Position numbers and translations under genes: made by a program. The notes under the pieces were generated by a model. It was given only the letters and a program-made list of their open reading frames with translations, had not been told where the DNA came from and searched no databases. Shown here piece after piece: positions 9,611 to 17,600 of a stretch of 42,869 nt of DNA. The stretch comes from an uncultured Burkholderiales bacterium. Its GTDB lineage: Bacteria > Pseudomonadota > Gammaproteobacteria > Burkholderiales > Burkholderiaceae_C. Each line of letters opens with the position of its first letter. Within the stretch, counting starts at the first letter, position 1. The stretch covers positions 1 to 42,869 of the forward strand of contig CAIRQX010000068.1 in NCBI GenBank assembly GCA_903880855.1, in the 5' to 3' direction.

Positions 9611-9673
9611 CCACTGACGCACAGATACAAGCACAAGGGGTTGGCCGAGGTGCTCACCTCACGTTGTCAGTGG
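9611..9673 (-). promoter_or_regulatory. Possible expression platform of the SAH riboswitch
   Basis: CCACTGAC (9611-9618) and GTCAGTGG (9666-9673) are perfectly complementary over 8 bp and bracket a small hairpin, GAGGTG/CACCTC (9647-9660). The distal arm runs three bases into the conserved 3' edge of the aptamer. This long-range stem could therefore compete with ligand-bound folding. The regulatory mechanism is inferred. Confidence 0.45.
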
Positions 9674-9742
9674 GTGAGCGCAGTTGGAAAAGTTTTCCGA
9701 GCCTCACTCCATCCACGCGGATGGAGCTGCAGCGCTCCTCGG
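9671..9742 (-). promoter_or_regulatory. S-adenosylhomocysteine (SAH) riboswitch aptamer
   Basis: The minus strand begins CCGAGGAGCGCTGC and continues with AGGCTCGG and then GCGCTCACC, the three conserved blocks of the SAH riboswitch. P1 forms from CCGAG and CTCGG. P2 is a perfect 8-bp stem CTCCATCC/GGATGGAG with a 4-nt loop. The GAGCGC of the first block can pair with GCGCTC of the third, giving the expected pseudoknot. It sits in the 5' leader of ahcY with a -10 element just upstream. Members of this class turn on SAH-recycling genes when SAH binds. Confidence 0.95.
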
Positions 9743-9751
9743 TTACCTGCA

Positions 9752-9845: not shown

Positions 9846-11477
9846 TTACCCTGCGGCTGACAAAGCTAAACCAGCATGCTCTCGAAGTGGATGGAAGTGG
9901 ATTTTGGGAAACCGCTCCTGCGCCAAACGCACGTCATAAGGAGACGTGCACAAATAGGCCAATGCATTCGCTGCATCCGTCGCCATGCGTTGTGGATAGG
10001 CATAGGTGAACTCGCGCAACTCTGCAGGCGTGTCTGCGGTGATCCAACGCGCGCTGGTGTATTGACAGTTTTCTAAACGCACATCACAGTCGTATTCTGC
10101 TTTCAAGCGGTGTTGCACCACTTCAAACTGCAATTGACCAACAGCACCTAGAAGCATGGCGCCACCCGCCTCAGGCTTGAACACTTGAATCGCGCCTTCT
10201 TCTCCGAGTTGGTCTAAGCCTTGTTGCAGTTGCTTGGTGCGCAGTGGGTTCTTCAAAATCACCGTCATAAACAATTCAGGCGCAAAGAAAGGTAACCCAG
10301 TGAACTGCAAAGCAGGCCCATCGGTGATGGTATCGCCCAATTGCACACCGCCATGCGTTGTAAAACCGATGATGTCACCCGCATAAGCCTCGTCCACCGC
10401 TTCGCGGCGTTGGCTCAAAAACGTGACAACCGAAGTCGGACGTAACTCTTTCGCAGTGCGTTGCACTTTCAACTTCATGCCTGGCTTGTATTGACCAGAG
10501 GCTACACGCACAAACGCGATACGGTCGCGGTGGTTCGCATCCATATTGGCTTGCACCTTGAACACCACGCCAGAAAAACCTGCATCTTCTGGATGGATAG
10601 TTTTCTCTTGCACTTGCTTATTAACGGTCAAATGGCTGATACGCGGCCCAGGTGATGGCGCCAAATCTACCAAGGCGTCTAACACTTCCATGACACCGAA
10701 GTTATTTACGCCAGAGCCAAAAAAGACAGGTGTTTGTTTGCCGGCTAAAAAAGCTTCTTTGTCAAAAGCAGGTGAAGCGCCAGTAGCCAACTCCATGCTG
10801 TCCATAGACGTCTGCCATTCGATCGCAAACCGCTCAGAGAGTTTGGCTTGCTCGGTTAATGGAATCGCTTCAAAGTCTTGCGGCAAACGTTCGCTGCCCG
10901 ACTCAAACACTGTCATCGCGTTGGTACGCAAATTAACAATGCCACCAAAAGTTTTGCCTTGGCCGACTGGCCAGGTCATTGGCACGCAGGGCATGCCCAA
11001 CTCACGCTCGACCTCGTCCAAGATATCGAGCGGGTCACGGACTTCGCGGTCCATTTTGTTCACAAAAGTGATGATGGGTGTATCGCGTTGGCGGCAGACT
11101 TCAATTAATCGGCGTGTTTGGGCTTCCACACCGTTGGCAGCATCGATCACCATTAACGCTGAATCGACAGCGGTCAAAACACGATATGTATCTTCAGAGA
11201 AGTCTTTGTGGCCAGGAGTGTCCAGTAAGTTGATCACATGGTCGCGGTAAAGCATCTGCATAACAGAAGATGCGACAGAGATGCCACGTTGTTTTTCAAT
11301 CTCCATCCAGTCACTCGTTGCATGACGCGAAGCCTTGCGCGCTTTAACGGATCCAGCAATTTGAATAGCCCCTGAAAACAAAAGCAATTTTTCAGTAAGT
11401 GTTGTTTTACCCGCATCAGGGTGAGAAATGATGGCAAACGTTCGACGTCGACCAACCTCGAGTGCAAATGAAGTCAT
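9846..11477 (-). CDS. prfC: Peptide chain release factor 3
   Basis: This 543-residue GTPase removes RF1 or RF2 from the ribosome after termination. The G domain shows SHPDAGKTT (18-26), DTPGH (86-90) and NKMD (140-143). Later RF3 segments include PVFFGSGVNNFGV and FKVQANMDANHRDRIAFVRVASG. The ATG at 11477 gives the usual N terminus (MTSFALEVGRRRTFAI). An in-frame TTG 11 codons upstream is less likely and would lie in the arm of a large hairpin. Only a weak TTGGA precedes the ATG. The gene follows uvrA on the same strand after a 279-bp spacer with two long hairpins, so it probably has its own promoter there. Confidence 0.96.
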   Translation of the reverse strand: MTSFALEVGRRRTFAIISHPDAGKTTLTEKLLLFSGAIQIAGSVKARKASRHATSDWMEIEKQRGISVASSVMQMLYRDHVINLLDTPGHKDFSEDTYRVLTAVDSALMVIDAANGVEAQTRRLIEVCRQRDTPIITFVNKMDREVRDPLDILDEVERELGMPCVPMTWPVGQGKTFGGIVNLRTNAMTVFESGSERLPQDFEAIPLTEQAKLSERFAIEWQTSMDSMELATGASPAFDKEAFLAGKQTPVFFGSGVNNFGVMEVLDALVDLAPSPGPRISHLTVNKQVQEKTIHPEDAGFSGVVFKVQANMDANHRDRIAFVRVASGQYKPGMKLKVQRTAKELRPTSVVTFLSQRREAVDEAYAGDIIGFTTHGGVQLGDTITDGPALQFTGLPFFAPELFMTVILKNPLRTKQLQQGLDQLGEEGAIQVFKPEAGGAMLLGAVGQLQFEVVQHRLKAEYDCDVRLENCQYTSARWITADTPAELREFTYAYPQRMATDAANALAYLCTSPYDVRLAQERFPKIHFHPLREHAGLALSAAG

Positions 11478-11488
11478 TCCAAGATTAT

Positions 11489-11579
11489 CGAACAAAGCCG
11501 AGTAGTCCAATGCGCGTGTGGCTCAATAAACGAGCGAAGCGAGGAGCCACATGCGCATTGGGCTGCTTGGCTTTGTTCG
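11489..11579. repeat. Long hairpin element 1, 36-bp stem with a 19-nt loop
   Basis: Arms 11489-11524 and 11544-11579 pair over 36 positions with only four non-Watson-Crick pairs. All four are G/T wobbles when read on the plus strand. The 19-nt loop (11525-11543) reads AATAAACGAGCGAAGCGAG on the plus strand. The inner stem end is GGCTC/GAGCC. The left arm ends 11 bp before the prfC ATG, so the structure could affect prfC expression. The element shares its loop, inverted, with the hairpin at 11645-11723. It has no T-run typical of a simple terminator. Its nature is unknown. Confidence 0.85.
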
Positions 11580-11600
11580 CGCATACCAATTTGCCACTTC

Positions 11601-11620
11601 TCGCAATACTACTAATGCGA
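11601..11620. promoter_or_regulatory. Operator-like dyad between the two hairpins
   Basis: TCGCA and TGCGA form a 5-bp inverted repeat around a 10-bp centre in the 65-bp segment that separates the two hairpins. This segment is the most likely place for a prfC promoter, although no strong -35/-10 pair was found. The evidence is weak. Confidence 0.25.
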
Positions 11621-11644
11621 TTTATTTTCAGATTCTGGGAGAGC

Positions 11645-11723
11645 GCAAAGCGAGATGGGATGTATCAACAGCTCCTCGCTGCGCTCGTTTATTGAGCTGT
11701 TGATACATCCCACCTCGCTTCGC
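11645..11723. repeat. Long hairpin element 2, 30-bp stem with the same loop inverted
   Basis: Arms 11645-11674 and 11694-11723 pair over 30 positions with two A/C mismatches on the plus strand, which become G/T wobbles on the minus strand. The loop (11675-11693) reads AATAAACGAGCGCAGCGAG on the minus strand, differing from element 1 at one base. The arms are unrelated to those of element 1 except for the inner GCTC/GAGC. The outer part of the stem contains CGAAGCGAAGCGAGG on the minus strand, which resembles the loop motif. It lies 33 bp after the uvrA stop codon. Confidence 0.85.
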
Positions 11724-11756: not shown

Positions 11757-14700
11757 TTATGTTCTTGCTAGAACTGGGGCTAGAGCGCGACCTGTGTGTG
11801 TGCCTAATTTCACTATTGCTTCTGGTGTATTTGCTGCAACTATCAGGCCGCCGCCATCTCCGCCTTCGGGTCCTAGGTCGATCACCCAATCTGCTTCTGC
11901 GATGACGTCTAAATCGTGCTCGATAACGACTACGCTGTGTCCGCCATCTACCAAGCGATGTAAGACTCGGATGAGTTTGTCTACATCGGCCATGTGAAGA
12001 CCGACTGTGGGTTCGTCTAGAACATAAAGCGTATGTGGTGCTTTGTTGCCGCGTCGTGTCACATCGTCACGGACTTTGCTTAGCTCGGTGACCAACTTGA
12101 TGCGTTGTGCTTCGCCACCGCTCAATGTGGGGGAAGGTTGTCCTAGTGTCAGATAACCCAGGCCTACATCTTTAAGTAATTGCAAAGGATGGCTGATGTT
12201 GGGCATGGTGGCGAAGAAGTCCACGGCTTCATCGACTTCCATTTGCAATACTTCACCAATACTTTTGCCGCGCCAACTGACTGCCAAGGTTTCAGGGTTG
12301 AAGCGTGCACCGTGGCAGGTTTCGCAAGGCACTTTGACATCCGGCAGAAAGCTCATTTCTATGGTGCGTAAGCCTTGGCCTTCACAGGTGTGGCAACGGC
12401 CTTCGCCCGTGTTGAAACTAAAACGGCCAGCGCCATAGCCACGGGCTTTGGCTTCTAGCGTCTCCGCGAATAGTTTGCGAATGATGTCCCAGAAGCCAAT
12501 ATAGGTTGCGGGGCAACTGCGTGGTGTTTTACCGATGGGTGTTTGGTCGACCTCTAATACGCGGTCAATGGTTTGGTAGCCGTCTAAGTTTGTGCATCCT
12601 AACCATGCGGGGTGTTTGCCAGCCTCATCGGCTTTGCGGCCTGCTTGGGTGGAGCGTTGTGTCACAACAGCCGCCACGTTATGCAACAACACATCGCGCG
12701 CCAATGTGGATTTACCTGAACCTGAAACACCGGTCACGGCGACTAAGCGTTTCAAAGGAATATCCACGCTTACTTCATTCAAATTGTGCAGCGACGCACC
12801 TTCTAAGGAGAGCCATTGCAAGACGGAATCGGTTTGGTTTAAAGAAACACCACGCCTCGCCTGCACAGGGTGGCGCATAGCTTGTAGCAAATATTTTCCA
12901 GTTTGTGATTCACTTACTGAAGTGATGTCATTGACTGTGCCTTCACCCATCAGTCGTCCGCCGCGCTTACCCGCGCTTGGGCCGATATCGATGATGTGGT
13001 CTGCGCGTCGAATCGTATCTTCATCGTGCTCGACAACTACCAAGGTATTGCCTTTGCTGCTGAGCAGATGCAAGGCGTTTAACAAGATTTGGTTGTCGCG
13101 CGCATGAAGGCCGATCGTGGGTTCGTCTAATACGTAACAAACGCCTTGTAAATTGCTACCCAATTGAGCGGCCAAGCGGATGCGTTGCGCTTCGCCACCG
13201 CTTAATGTTGGTGCGCCGCGGTCGAGCGTAAGGTAGTTCAGACCCACCTGTTCTAAGAACTCCAAACGACTTTTGATCTCAGGCAAGAGGTCGCGGGCAA
13301 TTTCAGCATCGCGCCCTTTGAGTCCTACGGTATCGCACCATGCACGTATTTGCGTGACGCTCAAGCGTGCGAGTTCAGTAATACCTACACCTGAAAACTT
13401 TACCGCGCGTGCAGTTGCGTTTAGTCGTGTGCCTTCGCATGTCGGACATGCCATATCGGTTAAATCCTCGACATCGGGTTCGGCGAAGGTTTGCTCGCGG
13501 CCTTTGTCTTTGTCGTCACGTACTGAGTCGTCTAAAACTTTACGTTGGTCTTTGCTGAGCTTGACGCCAATCCCTACGCAATCTGGACACCAACCGTGTT
13601 TGCTGTTGTACGAGAACAAACGCGGATCGAGCTCGGTGTAAGACGTTGCGCACACAGGACATGCGCGTTTGGTGGAATACACGTCTAGGCGTCCGATGCT
13701 CTGAGTGTCGAATCCGGCCACCATCGCTTCACGTAGACCGTCTAATTGACTCAATACGTGTAAGACGCCCTTGCCATGCTCTAAGGCAGTAGCCACAAAG
13801 CCGCGTAACTGGGCCTCGTTCGCAGCAGTAACCGTCACACTCGCTACTGGCAACTCAATCGTGTGCTCTTTGAATCTGTCTATACGCGGAAAATTAGTCG
13901 TTGGTAAAAAATGTCCATCTACACGCAAATGGGTGTACCCACGCGGACGCGCCCAGTCGGCTAATTCGGTGTAGACACCTTTGCGGTTAAGTACTAAGGG
14001 GCTGAGTAGCCCAATATGCTGGCCTTTGAATTCACGCATGAGTTGCGCAACGATGCGTTCAGGTGTTTGTGGTTCAACAGCAGCACCATCAATCACGCAG
14101 TGTTGCGTGCCTAGTTTGACAAAAAGCAAGCGCAAGAAATGCCAGACTTCTGTCGTGGTGCCAACGGTGGACTTTCTCCCGCCGCGTGATAAGCGCTGCT
14201 CAATCGCTACGGTTGGCGGAATGCCGTAGACCGCATCAACCTCTGGACGGCCTGCGGGTTGCACAATGCTGCGCGCGTAAGCGTTCAAGCTTTCTAAATA
14301 ACGGCGCTGGCCTTCGTTAAACAAAATATCAAAAGCCAATGTCGATTTGCCTGAGCCCGATACGCCAGTGATCACATTGAATTTTCCTCGCGGGATATTA
14401 ACGCTCAGGCTTTTGAGGTTGTGTTCTTTGGCGTTGACGATTTGAATGGCGTTGATGCGTTCTGCCAAGTAAGTGCCAGTGTTGTCTTTGACTTTTTTGC
14501 CTGCGTCGGCCTTTATTACATCCACCGCATATTCGACGCCCATGCTCTCTGCGTAATCACGCAATGCTTTGGCTGTATGCGACGTTGGATGCAACCTAAC
14601 TTCTTCGGGCGGTCCCTCTGTCACAAGAAATCCGCCTGCATCGCCACCTTCTGGGCCTAAATCAATCAACCAATCGCTTGCTCGTATTACGTCTAAGTTG

Positions 14701-17600
14701 TGTTCGATCACGATCAGTGAATTTCCGTCTTCCAACAAGCGGCGCATTGCGCGCATAAGTTTGGCGATGTCATCGAAGTGCAAGCCCGTAGTTGGCTCGT
14801 CGAATAAAAACAAAACACCTTTTTTGGCCAAGTTCTGCTTGCTAGATGTTTTTGCTTTCGCCGCATCGGCCAAAAATCCAGCCAACTTCAAGCGCTGCGC
14901 TTCACCTCCGCTTAAGGTGGGAACGGGTTGTCCTAGCTTCACATAGTCCAAGCCAACATCCACGATGGGTTGCAGAGCGCGAACAACGTCTCTGTCTTTG
15001 GCAAATATTTCTAATGCTTCGCCAACGGTGAGTTCTAGAACATCTGCTACGTTTAAGAAGACAGTTGTGGAGTCGGAGTAATTGGGGTCAGATCCCAATT
15101 GATTTAATTGGGATCTGACCCCAATTACTCCAATTACTCCAATTACTCGTTCAATCCTGATTTCCAATATTTCAGGTCTATAACGCTGCCCATTGCAATC
15201 TTGGCAACGTAAATACACATCGCTGAGGAATTGCATTTCTACGTGCTCGAAGCCAGAGCCCCCGCATGTGGGACATCTGCCGTCGCCGCCGTTGAAGCTA
15301 AATTTGGAGGCGGTGTAGCCGCGTTGCTGCGATAGGGGGGCAGTGGCGAATATTTCTCGCACTGCATCCCAAGCACCCACATAACTTGCGGGATTCGATC
15401 GGGCAGTTTTACCGATGGGGGATTGATCTACAAATACGACATCACTCAAATGGTCTGCACCTAATAGGCGGTCGTGCACGCCGGATGTCTCGGTAGCTTT
15501 TCCGAATTGGCGCAGCAAGGCTGGTGTCAAGATGTCTTGAATTAATGTGGACTTGCCAGAACCGCTAACACCTGTCACGCACACCAATCGTTGCAAAGGA
15601 AATTCAATCGCTAAATTCTTGAGGTTGTGTTCGCGTGCGCCTTCCAATATCAAGCGCGGTGTGTGGTCTGTCACCAAGCGCTTCAATCCGAGTCCGATCG
15701 TTTTTCGTGCGCCTAAATAAGCACCCGTTAAAGTATCAGCAGATTTCAAGGCCTCTGGTGTTCCATCAAAAACGATCGAACCACCACGCACACCGGGACC
15801 CGGGCCCATATCCAAAATGCGGTCAGCGCACATCATGACGGCAGGATCGTGCTCCACCACTACCAATGTGTTGCCAGCATCACGCAATCGCACCATGGCT
15901 TGGTTAATACGACTCATGTCTCTGGGGTGCAAACCAATACTGGGTTCGTCCAGCACAAATAAGGTATTCACCAATGAGGTGCCCAACGCTGTCGTGAGGT
16001 TGATGCGTTGCACCTCACCACCACTCAAGGTACGACTTTGGCGATCAAGCGTTAAGTAGCCGATGCCAACGTCGTTCAAATATTTCAAGCGAGTGCGAAT
16101 TTCTTCCATCAACAAATGCAAGGCCTGGGCATCTTGGCCTTGCACATCAATTTGCATGGCATTGAAAAACTTATGCAATTTGTCAATCGACAAAGTCATT
16201 AAGTCATGCAGGCACAAACCAGGTAATGCTTCCAATTGCTTACGTGTCCACTGCACGCCTTGCGGCATAAAGCGCTGCGCAGGTTGCATCACAGTATTTG
16301 CGTTCTCTTTGGAGCCAATTCGCCACAACAAACTGTCCGTCTTTAGACGCGCACCACCACAGACGTGGCACGGCGTGTAACTGCGGTATTTCGACAACAG
16401 CACACGAATGTGCATCTTGTACGACTTGGTCTCCAAGTATTCAAAGAATCGTTTGATGCCGTACCACTGGTGGTTCCATTTGCCTTTCCATAAAGGCGAA
16501 CCACCTATGACCCACGCTTGCTGCTCTTTAGATAATTTGTACCAAGGCGTGTCGCGCGGTATTCCTTCGGCCTCAGCATGGCGCATCAAATCGTCTTGGC
16601 ATTCTTTCCACGCAGGTGTTTGAATCGTTTTGATGGCGCCAGCACGCAAAGTGAGTTTTTCGTTAGGGATGACTAAACCATAGTCAACACCAATCACCCG
16701 ACCAAAGCCGCGACATGTTTCGCACGCACCCACTGCCGAGTTGAACGAAAACATCGACGGGATGGGACTCGCGTAAGTGAGATCGCTGTCTGGACAATGG
16801 AGGCCGGTGGAGAAGCGCCAGATTGCAAATAAATTGGGGTCAGAACCTAATTCTTTCGCAGAAAAATTAGGTTCTGACCCCAATTTATTTGCTTCTTCCA
16901 TATACACATTCAACCGGCCACCGCCACGCTTGATAGCCAACTCGATGGCTTCTAAAACACGCGGCTGTTCCGCATTCCCGTTTTTAAATCGGTCTGCTAC
17001 TACATCTAATAGTTTGCGCGGGCCAGTGGGGGTGGCCACTTCGCGCTCTGCGTGAACACGGGTAAAACCACTGGCGCTTAGCCATTGCTCTACTTCTTGT
17101 GCTGTGGTGTTAGCGGGCAACTCCACGGGGAAGGTAAATATCAGTCTTGCATCCGAAGACAGCAACGCACTGCGGCGTTGCAGTTCTGCATAAATGGTTT
17201 GGGGCGTATCGTGCTGCACCGCTTGCGCAGTTTGACGGTCAAATAACTGTCCGCTTCTAGCAACCAACAACTTCAAGTGGTCGTTAATCTCTGTCATCGT
17301 GCCCACGGTGGAGCGCGAACTGCGCACAGGATTGGTTTGGTCAATCGCAATCGCTGGTGGGACGCCTTCGACTTTGTCGACGGCAGGCCTGTCCATGCGG
17401 TCTAAGAACTGCCTGGCGTAAGCGCTGAATGTCTCTACATAGCGTCGCTGTCCTTCGGCATACAAAGTGTCGAACACCAAACTCGACTTGCCAGAGCCAC
17501 TGGGGCCTGTGACCACTGTCAATTCACCAGTCCGGATATCTAGATCGAGATTCTTAAGGTTGTGCTGGCGTGCGCCGCGGATGCGAATAGTGCCTGACAT
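11757..17600 (-). CDS. uvrA: Double-length excinuclease subunit A (tandem UvrA fusion)
   Basis: This 1947-residue protein holds two complete UvrA units, about 1-1010 and 1045-1947. UvrA is the damage-sensing ABC ATPase of nucleotide excision repair. There are four Walker A motifs: GPSGSGKS (32-39) and GVSGSGKS near 675, 1077 and 1621. Four LSGGE signatures lie near 523, 895, 1467 and 1826. Each unit has its zinc-binding CxxC clusters (for example [24 protein letters not shown]) and the UvrB-binding region. Normal UvrA is about 940 residues, so this is a tandem fusion. Two palindromic insertions lie in frame near residues 237-259 and 818-842. The start ATG has only weak GAGAG upstream. Whether a separate single UvrA exists elsewhere cannot be seen. 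Confidence 0.93.
15075..15131. repeat. Perfect 26-bp palindrome inserted in frame in uvrA
   Basis: Arms 15075-15100 and 15106-15131 are perfect inverted repeats around a 5-nt loop, with the core GGGGTCAGATCCCAATT. It is read as coding sequence, giving [17 protein letters not shown] in UvrA between RPEILEIRI and the next conserved block. The core resembles short palindromes scattered in many betaproteobacterial genomes and linked to REP-type or IS200-like elements. That link is from general knowledge, not shown here. Confidence 0.9.
15122..15148. repeat. Three 9-bp tandem repeats next to the uvrA palindrome
   Basis: CAATTACTC occurs three times without interruption, and the first copy overlaps the right arm of the palindrome. 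On the coding strand this gives three V-I-G units in UvrA. It looks like slippage-driven expansion of the palindrome edge that kept the reading frame. Confidence 0.85.
16825..16892. repeat. Perfect 28-bp palindrome inserted in frame in uvrA
   Basis: Arms 16825-16852 and 16865-16892 are perfect inverted repeats around a 12-nt loop. The core GGGGTCAGAACCTAATT matches the second uvrA palindrome at nearly every base. Read in frame it encodes NKLGSEPNF and [10 protein letters not shown], so both arms give LGS(D/E)PN. It lies in the first UvrA unit just ahead of the segment leading to the zinc-binding CETC motif. Confidence 0.9.

Follow-up and report, generated by a model that had tools for sequence, protein, structure and literature searches.

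Long intergenic hairpins with a conserved tip and variable arms form a repeat family centred on one Burkholderiales genus

The two long hairpins found between two neighbouring genes of an uncultured Burkholderiales bacterium are two diverged members of an intergenic hairpin repeat family centred on one genus. Members of the family share a conserved tip on a covarying stem, carry wobble pairs that favour one strand, lie near the 3′ ends of genes and recur as inverted pairs. Some arms are homologous between loci, and copies have been lost in a manner resembling deletion. As an explanation we propose, with slightly less than even confidence, a REP-like hairpin repeat acting as single-stranded DNA, in which the tip is read by a putative factor and the arms are copied by template switching. 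The window, in what follows, is the whole stretch of 42,869 nucleotides that was analysed.

A preliminary description of the window had reported twin long hairpins with stems of 36 and 30 bp and 19-nt loops, one on each strand, between uvrA and prfC. The coordinates and the folds confirm it (Table 1). The two flanking minus-strand open reading frames are presumed to be prfC and uvrA, and the product of the latter has about double what we take to be its usual length. Element 2 follows the uvrA stop codon at a distance of 33 nt, and the base of element 1 precedes the probable ATG of prfC (11477–11475, minus strand) by 11 nt. Of 200 dinucleotide shuffles, none reaches the fold of the native sequence, whichever strand or element is taken; for the loop-sense strand the z scores are −12.13 (element 1) and −11.55 (element 2) folded as RNA, and −10.00 and −10.53 folded as DNA. 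By RNA folding energy the sense strand is the more stable one in both elements (−68.4 vs −50.7 kcal/mol for element 1, −55.2 vs −48.0 kcal/mol for element 2). The inverted segment common to the two is made of the loop together with GCTC/GAGC, giving the pair a local tip variant, CTC-AATAAAC-GAGCGNAGCGAG-GAG. Two palindromic repeats of the GGGGTCAGA type also lie within the uvrA frame; they encode LGSDPN-like stretches and leave the reading frame intact. REPs within uvrA have been reported for other species (PMC3733652).

Table 1. Coordinates of the hairpins and neighbouring features in the window.
Feature	Position	Strand	Evidence or remark
SAH riboswitch	9669–9746	−	Rfam RF01057, 55 bits
prfC (neighbour)	9846–11477	−	Open reading frame; presumed gene name, as in the preliminary description
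Element 1, hairpin with 36-bp stem	11489–11579	+ (loop sense)	Fold, wobbles, R1 match (element 1 was in the set from which R1 was built)
Arms of element 1	11489–11524 and 11544–11579		36 nt each
Loop of element 1, AATAAACGAGCGAAGCGAG	11525–11543	+	19 nt; mini-hairpin GC-GAA-GC
Inverted segment common to both elements	11521–11547 (+) vs 11671–11697		27 nt, 96% identity
Element 2, hairpin with 30-bp stem	11645–11723	− (loop sense)	Fold, wobbles, R1 match (element 2 was in the set from which R1 was built)
Arms of element 2	11645–11674 and 11694–11723		30 nt each
Loop of element 2, AATAAACGAGCGCAGCGAG	11675–11693	−	19 nt; mini-hairpin GC-GCA-GC
uvrA (neighbour)	11757–17600	−	Open reading frame, 1947 aa; presumed gene name
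GGGGTCAGA-type repeats	15052–15154 and 16825–16892		Palindromic, within the uvrA frame

The exact string AATAAACGAGCG occurs in this genome in elements 1 and 2 only. Searching the genome and its relatives for the loop recovered the same twin arrangement at the uvrA–prfC locus of the congeners G014, G022 and G062 (in G062 a single loop base of element 1 differs), and a looser loop pattern brought up three further hairpins of 30–31 bp in this genome, whose loop, GACATCAAGAGCGAAGCGAGGA, is related to that of the window. The family itself was found via genus-wide patterns and then by two covariance models built here, R1 and R2. R1 matches at least 29 of the 84 genomes of the genus at E ≤ 1e-3, with at least 18 matches in the window's own genome. 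R2 matches at least 39 of the 84 at 1e-4, with at least 19 matches in the window's own genome and up to at least 32 in another, although a hairpin may in some cases be counted once for each strand. G027 and G029, whose genomes are single contigs, have at least 16 and 21 R2 matches. The repeat family with a constant loop and variable arms that had been suspected from the window is thereby borne out. Beyond the genus the matches thin out: at least 6 of 299 genomes sampled from the taxonomic family match R1, four of them belonging to this genus and including the window's own, and at least 5 of 399 genomes sampled across the order match R2 (the window's own, two from genus g78, one from g64 and one from g39). 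All these counts are lower bounds, as the candidates scored per genome numbered 50 (R1, genus), 14 (R1, family), 49 (R2, genus) and 10 (R2, order). Four contigs (L130, L178, L191 and L192) end inside family hairpins or no more than about 50 bases from them, and copies in draft genomes are therefore probably under-counted.

A hairpin repeat with this exact loop, general to bacteria, was considered and rejected. The pattern of 18 specified bases occurs in 33 stretches of genome_contigs, where by our own estimate about 7–8 are expected by chance, and every match other than those in G022, G014 and G062 has a stem of at most 2 bp. Two exact loop patterns gave no match in viral_contigs. The literature on such repeat families, template switching, mini-hairpins and REPINs, taken mostly from outside the subscription journals, yielded no recognised description of this family.

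Stems are near-perfect and 21–36 bp long in the 135 hairpins measured, with one of 17 bp besides. The tip consensus runs GC-GACAT, then a mini-hairpin (often C-GNA-G), then GGA-GC; GCCAT, GACGT or GATTT may replace GACAT, and TGA or TAA may replace GGA. The 19-nt loop shared by elements 1 and 2 is one local variant of this GACAT..GNA..GGA tip, so that what is constant in the family is the tip and not the 19-nt form. In an alignment of 53 sequences (A3), all 29 modelled stem pairs are altered on both sides. Of the cells of these pairs, 91.7% are paired, against 55.6% when shuffled and 33.7–41.2% with slid partners; the latter control leans toward the modelled structure, which was itself derived from this alignment. 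The mini-hairpin likewise varies on both sides (GCGC/GCGC, GAGC/GCTC, GCAC/GTGC). By automatic picking, a GNA triloop is present in 41 of 71 distinct loops, compared with 4.3% of shuffled loops, and the GNA turn is absent from 30 of the 71; AAA is found in 6 further loops. DNA mini-hairpins closed by GNA or GNNA loops have been described as extraordinarily stable (PMC4686876). The tip also differs between genomes, being GACGTT in G002 and G059 and GACATC in G074 at what is apparently one locus.

Of the non-Watson-Crick positions, the four in element 1 are without exception G.T on the plus strand and the two in element 2 are G.T on the minus strand, that is, on the loop-sense strand in each copy, as first described. 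In other copies, too, the wobbles fall on the loop-sense strand; an equal split between the strands, which by the preliminary description would have refuted its interpretation, is not observed. With the outer four pairs trimmed to leave the stem core, the loop-sense strand of 36 non-redundant loci carries 52 G.T, 3 A.C, 15 G.A and 1 T.C mismatches, and that of 20 later loci, dissimilar to the first set, carries 42 G.T, 1 A.C, 6 G.A and 1 T.C. Untrimmed, the G.T:A.C ratios are 55:10 and 45:3, the added A.C sitting at the stem base; trims from 0 to 6 were also computed. Near-identical orthologs were removed from both sets. The 79 hairpins kept for listing wobbles had one of seven typed loop motifs and a loop region of at most 50 nt, by which the minus hairpin of locus C103 was dropped. 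For the second set, 56 of 63 matches were kept, the seven omitted being the weaker strand of another match; orientation was taken from the strand of the G-U-tolerant model, and the loops are consistent in that sense. Since G.T prevails over A.C on the loop-sense strand, that strand folds as a single strand.

C-to-T change on the wobble strand while single-stranded had been offered as an alternative to selection for an RNA hairpin; taken as a change on one replication or transcription strand, it fits these data poorly. In three pairs of oppositely oriented hairpins (L182, L199 and L193) the G.T bias is present in both members; two others (L139 and L140) show it less distinctly, with A.C close to the base of the stem in their minus members. 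The bias thus tracks the element's own orientation, and a strand bias of replication or transcription is insufficient to account for it.

Where the hairpins lie bears on whether the folded strand is DNA or RNA. Placement was derived from open reading frames of at least 100 codons and not from annotation, and 41 of 56 loci could be classified (14 were unclear and 1 far). Twenty-five lie in convergent gaps, 12 in codirectional gaps and 4 between divergent genes. The gene on the 3′ side ends toward the hairpin at 33 of the 41 loci, with its stop codon 8–69 nt away in 27 of these, and the gene on the 5′ side points into the hairpin at 29. Hairpins neighbouring each other in one gap form 22 pairs among the 150 matches listed: 20 are in the (−,+) arrangement, 2 are (−,−) and none is (+,−), with 7–152 nt between the members. 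The window pair is (+,−) and is therefore unusual. Ten congeners (G001, G003, G006, G027, G028, G029, G065, G071, G075 and G076) have a family match at the 3′ end of prfC as well; by comparison of coordinates it lies 12–18 bases beyond the matched end of prfC, except in G028, where it overlaps by 7.

The loop-sense strand might be transcribed, as part of a 3′ UTR or as a small RNA, so that the hairpin would serve, for example, as an RNA stabiliser or present a protein-binding tip. We regard this as doubtful, albeit the most serious of the rival explanations. Toleration of G.T, as G-U, on one strand, the G.A pairs, the very strong covariation, the A/C-rich and T-poor flanks of the sense strand and the 29 loci with a 5′-side gene directed into the hairpin all suit it. 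However, the sense strand of the hairpin is antisense to the genes in 8 of the codirectional gaps and sense in only 4, and the 3′-side gene would transcribe the antisense strand at the 33 loci where it ends toward the hairpin. At 12 of the 41 loci (8 '−−' and 4 '−+') the 5′-side gene does not read into the sense strand, which favours DNA over mRNA. The shortest spacings within pairs leave little room for divergent promoters. Rfam has no family at or above its gathering score at the window hairpins or in 20 further loci; a search of 7 loci with E up to 1 gave, at the hairpins, microRNA models and a single viral stem-loop model, all below threshold. We prefer single-stranded DNA to RNA as the folded form, by a modest preference only.

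Reading the other strand, the hairpin past a stop codon followed by T-rich sequence would be the intrinsic terminator of the adjacent gene. The convergent placement, with the 3′-side gene ending toward the hairpin, could be explained in this way, together with the A-runs at the 5′ foot (T-runs after the antisense hairpin), which occur at 9 loci of the first set (36) and 6 of the second (20), a T-run on the other side being found at 1 locus in each set. Such a role is nevertheless unlikely, as each G.T of the sense strand becomes A.C in the supposed terminator RNA, the A-run is missing in 41 of the 56 loci, and four of the classified loci lie between divergent genes. Moreover, termination is not known to require so long a stem with a conserved tip.

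The arms had been supposed to copy local sequence, and this did not hold. When the 20 innermost nucleotides of the left arm are compared with the remainder of their own locus, 1 arm of 56 reaches 16 matches (0.18% of shuffled arms do so), and the four arms of the window match the rest of it no better than shuffled arms. Instead, some arms are homologous between loci. For instance, the arms of C64 (minus) and C116 (plus) are identical at 20 of 22 nt. Among arm pairs within this genome, 7 of 91 reach at least 15 of 22 matches (0.16% of shuffles) and 84 stay below, so that the arms alone do not establish homology between most loci. An arm of element 1 is identical to the minus hairpin of C103 at 19 of 31 positions, a score equalled but never exceeded in 2000 shuffles.

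Within a locus, the arms often change jointly. In 34 comparisons of orthologous hairpins, which are pairwise, overlapping and not phylogenetically independent, 946 pair positions are unchanged, 67 differ in a single arm and 37 in both arms. Double changes make up 37 of the 104 changed pairs; 35 of the 37 go from one Watson-Crick pair to another, and 16 of those 35 are of transversion type. At C60, G000 and G014 differ by 7 double changes and no single one, and at C37b one double change separates G000 from G022, with stem and loop otherwise identical. Element 1, compared between G000 and G062, has 4 single and no double changes, and other groups too are mostly single. Paired double changes in the arms are such as template switching would give, and template switching is known to yield paired changes and inversion (PMC8794818; PMC8604942). 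At locus C72, the hairpin of G000 aligns inverted, at 92%, to the hairpins of G022 and G004 with the flanks collinear; its arms match at 56 of 62 positions in the same sense and at 53 of 62 when swapped. Judging from these alignments, either the loop or the whole hairpin may have been inverted. In G062 (C86, L135) the left arm at this locus is gone, and what remains is the right arm with a portion of the tip.

The clean double changes, transversions included, and the inverted hairpin or loop at C72 would also be expected if the palindromes were neutral, with template switching alone creating them and maintaining their perfect pairing. We consider this very improbable because the 52:3 and 42:1 bias on one strand and the tip conserved at many loci are left unexplained. 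Template switching offers no cause for the G.T bias; selection for folding of one strand is thus needed as well.

Orthologous loci illustrate how copies persist and decay. G005, G048 and G065 carry pairs orthologous to the twin at C103 in G000, and G074 has a match to one of its hairpins (flanks 75–78% identical); in G014, G022, G004 and G062 the twin is reduced to short relics. At C103 a single tip is common to both hairpins of G000, and those of G005 have another that is near-identical in both; one arm pair is clearly conserved. These few cases hint, on the alignments available, at concerted tips. The hairpin at C161 is absent from G007, where the flanks are 96–97% alike and the 5′ leader of the element is retained, so that the loss looks like a deletion. 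The search for empty sites brought up no clean insertion, and both absences examined (C103 and C161) resemble deletions. For the window pair no empty orthologous site is available, as a motif script applied to the gap upstream of prfC at 30 loci found uvrA in only two (L067, the window, and L068, in G062).

A mobile gene carried between flanking hairpins was sought as well. The candidate, a stretch of 1.8 kb, was rejected, being presumably recA and the gene after it. Among the loci L200, L180, L182, L199 and L204, family hairpins lie upstream of recA and, in G022, a twin lies downstream of the gene after recA; similar arms are present in G000, G007 and G014.

In the reading that we favour, the loop-sense strand of the palindrome would fold, when single-stranded, into a long hairpin with a conserved cap, consisting of a G-C pair, the GACAT-type strand, a mini-hairpin of 2–6 bp often with a GNA turn, GGA and a G-C pair. 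The folding strand would be single-stranded DNA, as in REP and IS200-type systems. A putative factor would recognise the tip and require just a long stem underneath, leaving the stem sequence to drift freely. Template switching during replication would copy one arm to the other and so produce clean double changes and, at times, an inverted loop. The family would have spread by copying and would now be subject mostly to vertical inheritance and erosion.

The likeness to REPs is considerable. REPs are intergenic palindromes near gene 3′ ends that favour convergent gaps, form inverted dimers and contain G.T stem pairs (PMC3733652). TnpAREP binds the folded single strand of a REP strand-specifically (PMC8266576), and RAYT genes are flanked by REPs (PMC2817692). 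Family hairpins are intergenic too, near 3′ ends and in convergent or codirectional gaps (25 and 12 of 41); inverted dimers are frequent (20 of the 22 pairs among the matches listed), and their stems contain G.T pairs. However, REP stems measure 5–13 bp (GTAG) or 8–9 bp (CGTC) (PMC3733652, Table 1), far short of the family stems, and in the family hairpins the tip is conserved and the stem variable. A general terminal tag is also lacking, as judged from counts of GTAG and GNAG: GTAG stands at the 5′ foot of 5 of the first 36 loci and 1 of the later 20. GNAG, counted with its last G as the first stem base, is there at 11 of the 36 and 1 of the 20, with enrichment over adjacent positions in the 36-locus set.

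Y1/RAYT genes occur in 65 of the 84 genomes of the genus. In 9 of the 10 RAYT loci read, REPs of the GGGGTCAGA type lie nearby (on both sides of the gene in 7, on one side in 2), and L253 has none. The REPs of L252 and L254–L261 are AATTGGGGTCAGA(A/T)CCCAATT-like, the same kind as the repeats in uvrA. Three of the 10 loci (L253 of G074, L252 of G029 and L254 of G070) have a family hairpin on one side only, at a distance of about 1 kb from the gene, and those three hairpins carry a GCCATCA..ACGTTAA tip. None of the 10 loci is flanked on both sides by family hairpins. For these loci the family is ruled out as the cognate REP of the RAYT genes, nine of which have the GGGGTCAGA-type REPs instead. 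By analogy it is plausible that the family works like a REP; that it is a REP does not agree with the defining features compared here, the short stem among them.

Other systems share part of the pattern. As in the family hairpins, a hairpin folded from one strand is the working form of IS200/IS605 ends and of integron attC sites. The latter also tolerate variable stem sequence, and their conserved part is at the base, whereas the family hairpins are conserved at the apical tip. ERIC, RUP, Correia and YPAL elements are likewise intergenic, foldable, present at many loci and about 100 bp long. Such families are conserved in sequence along their whole length; in contrast, most arms of the present family are unlike between loci (the 84 of 91 pairs in this genome below 15 of 22 matches) with the pairing kept.

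The usual pattern of small palindromes, a conserved stem with a freer loop, is reversed in the family hairpins. The family is a natural record, at many loci, of joint change of the arms of hairpins, and the orthologous copies in related genomes allow template switching to be timed against single mutations. The strong strand-specific mismatch bias makes an RNA or a single-stranded DNA function directly testable. It is possible, though on balance we think it doubtful, that the hairpins represent a new class of repeat, in which the recognised part would be a GNA-capped tip of single-stranded DNA and the stem a scaffold drifting via template switching. The stem could drift freely in that case because any new mutation would be carried over to the opposite arm by template switching; a putative tip-reading protein would move, pair or use the hairpins, and the tip variants would follow species.

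Two other recurrent sequences came to light. The string AATAAACGAGCGNAGCGAG was met in L028, L035, L039, L044, L047 and L054 (Rhodocyclaceae) and in L040: in Rhodocyclaceae it recurs shortly before hairpins of a C-run and a G-run, and in a Sterolibacterium contig it occurs four times at a spacing of 168 nt. None of these occurrences forms the loop of a long hairpin. Separately, L036, L045 and L058 (titled Gastranaerophilales) and L051 and L056 (uncultured bacterium) have in common AATAAACGAGCGTAGCGAG with a conserved GTTAGCGGC..CTGCTGAGCTATAG tract after it, perhaps a separate repeat.
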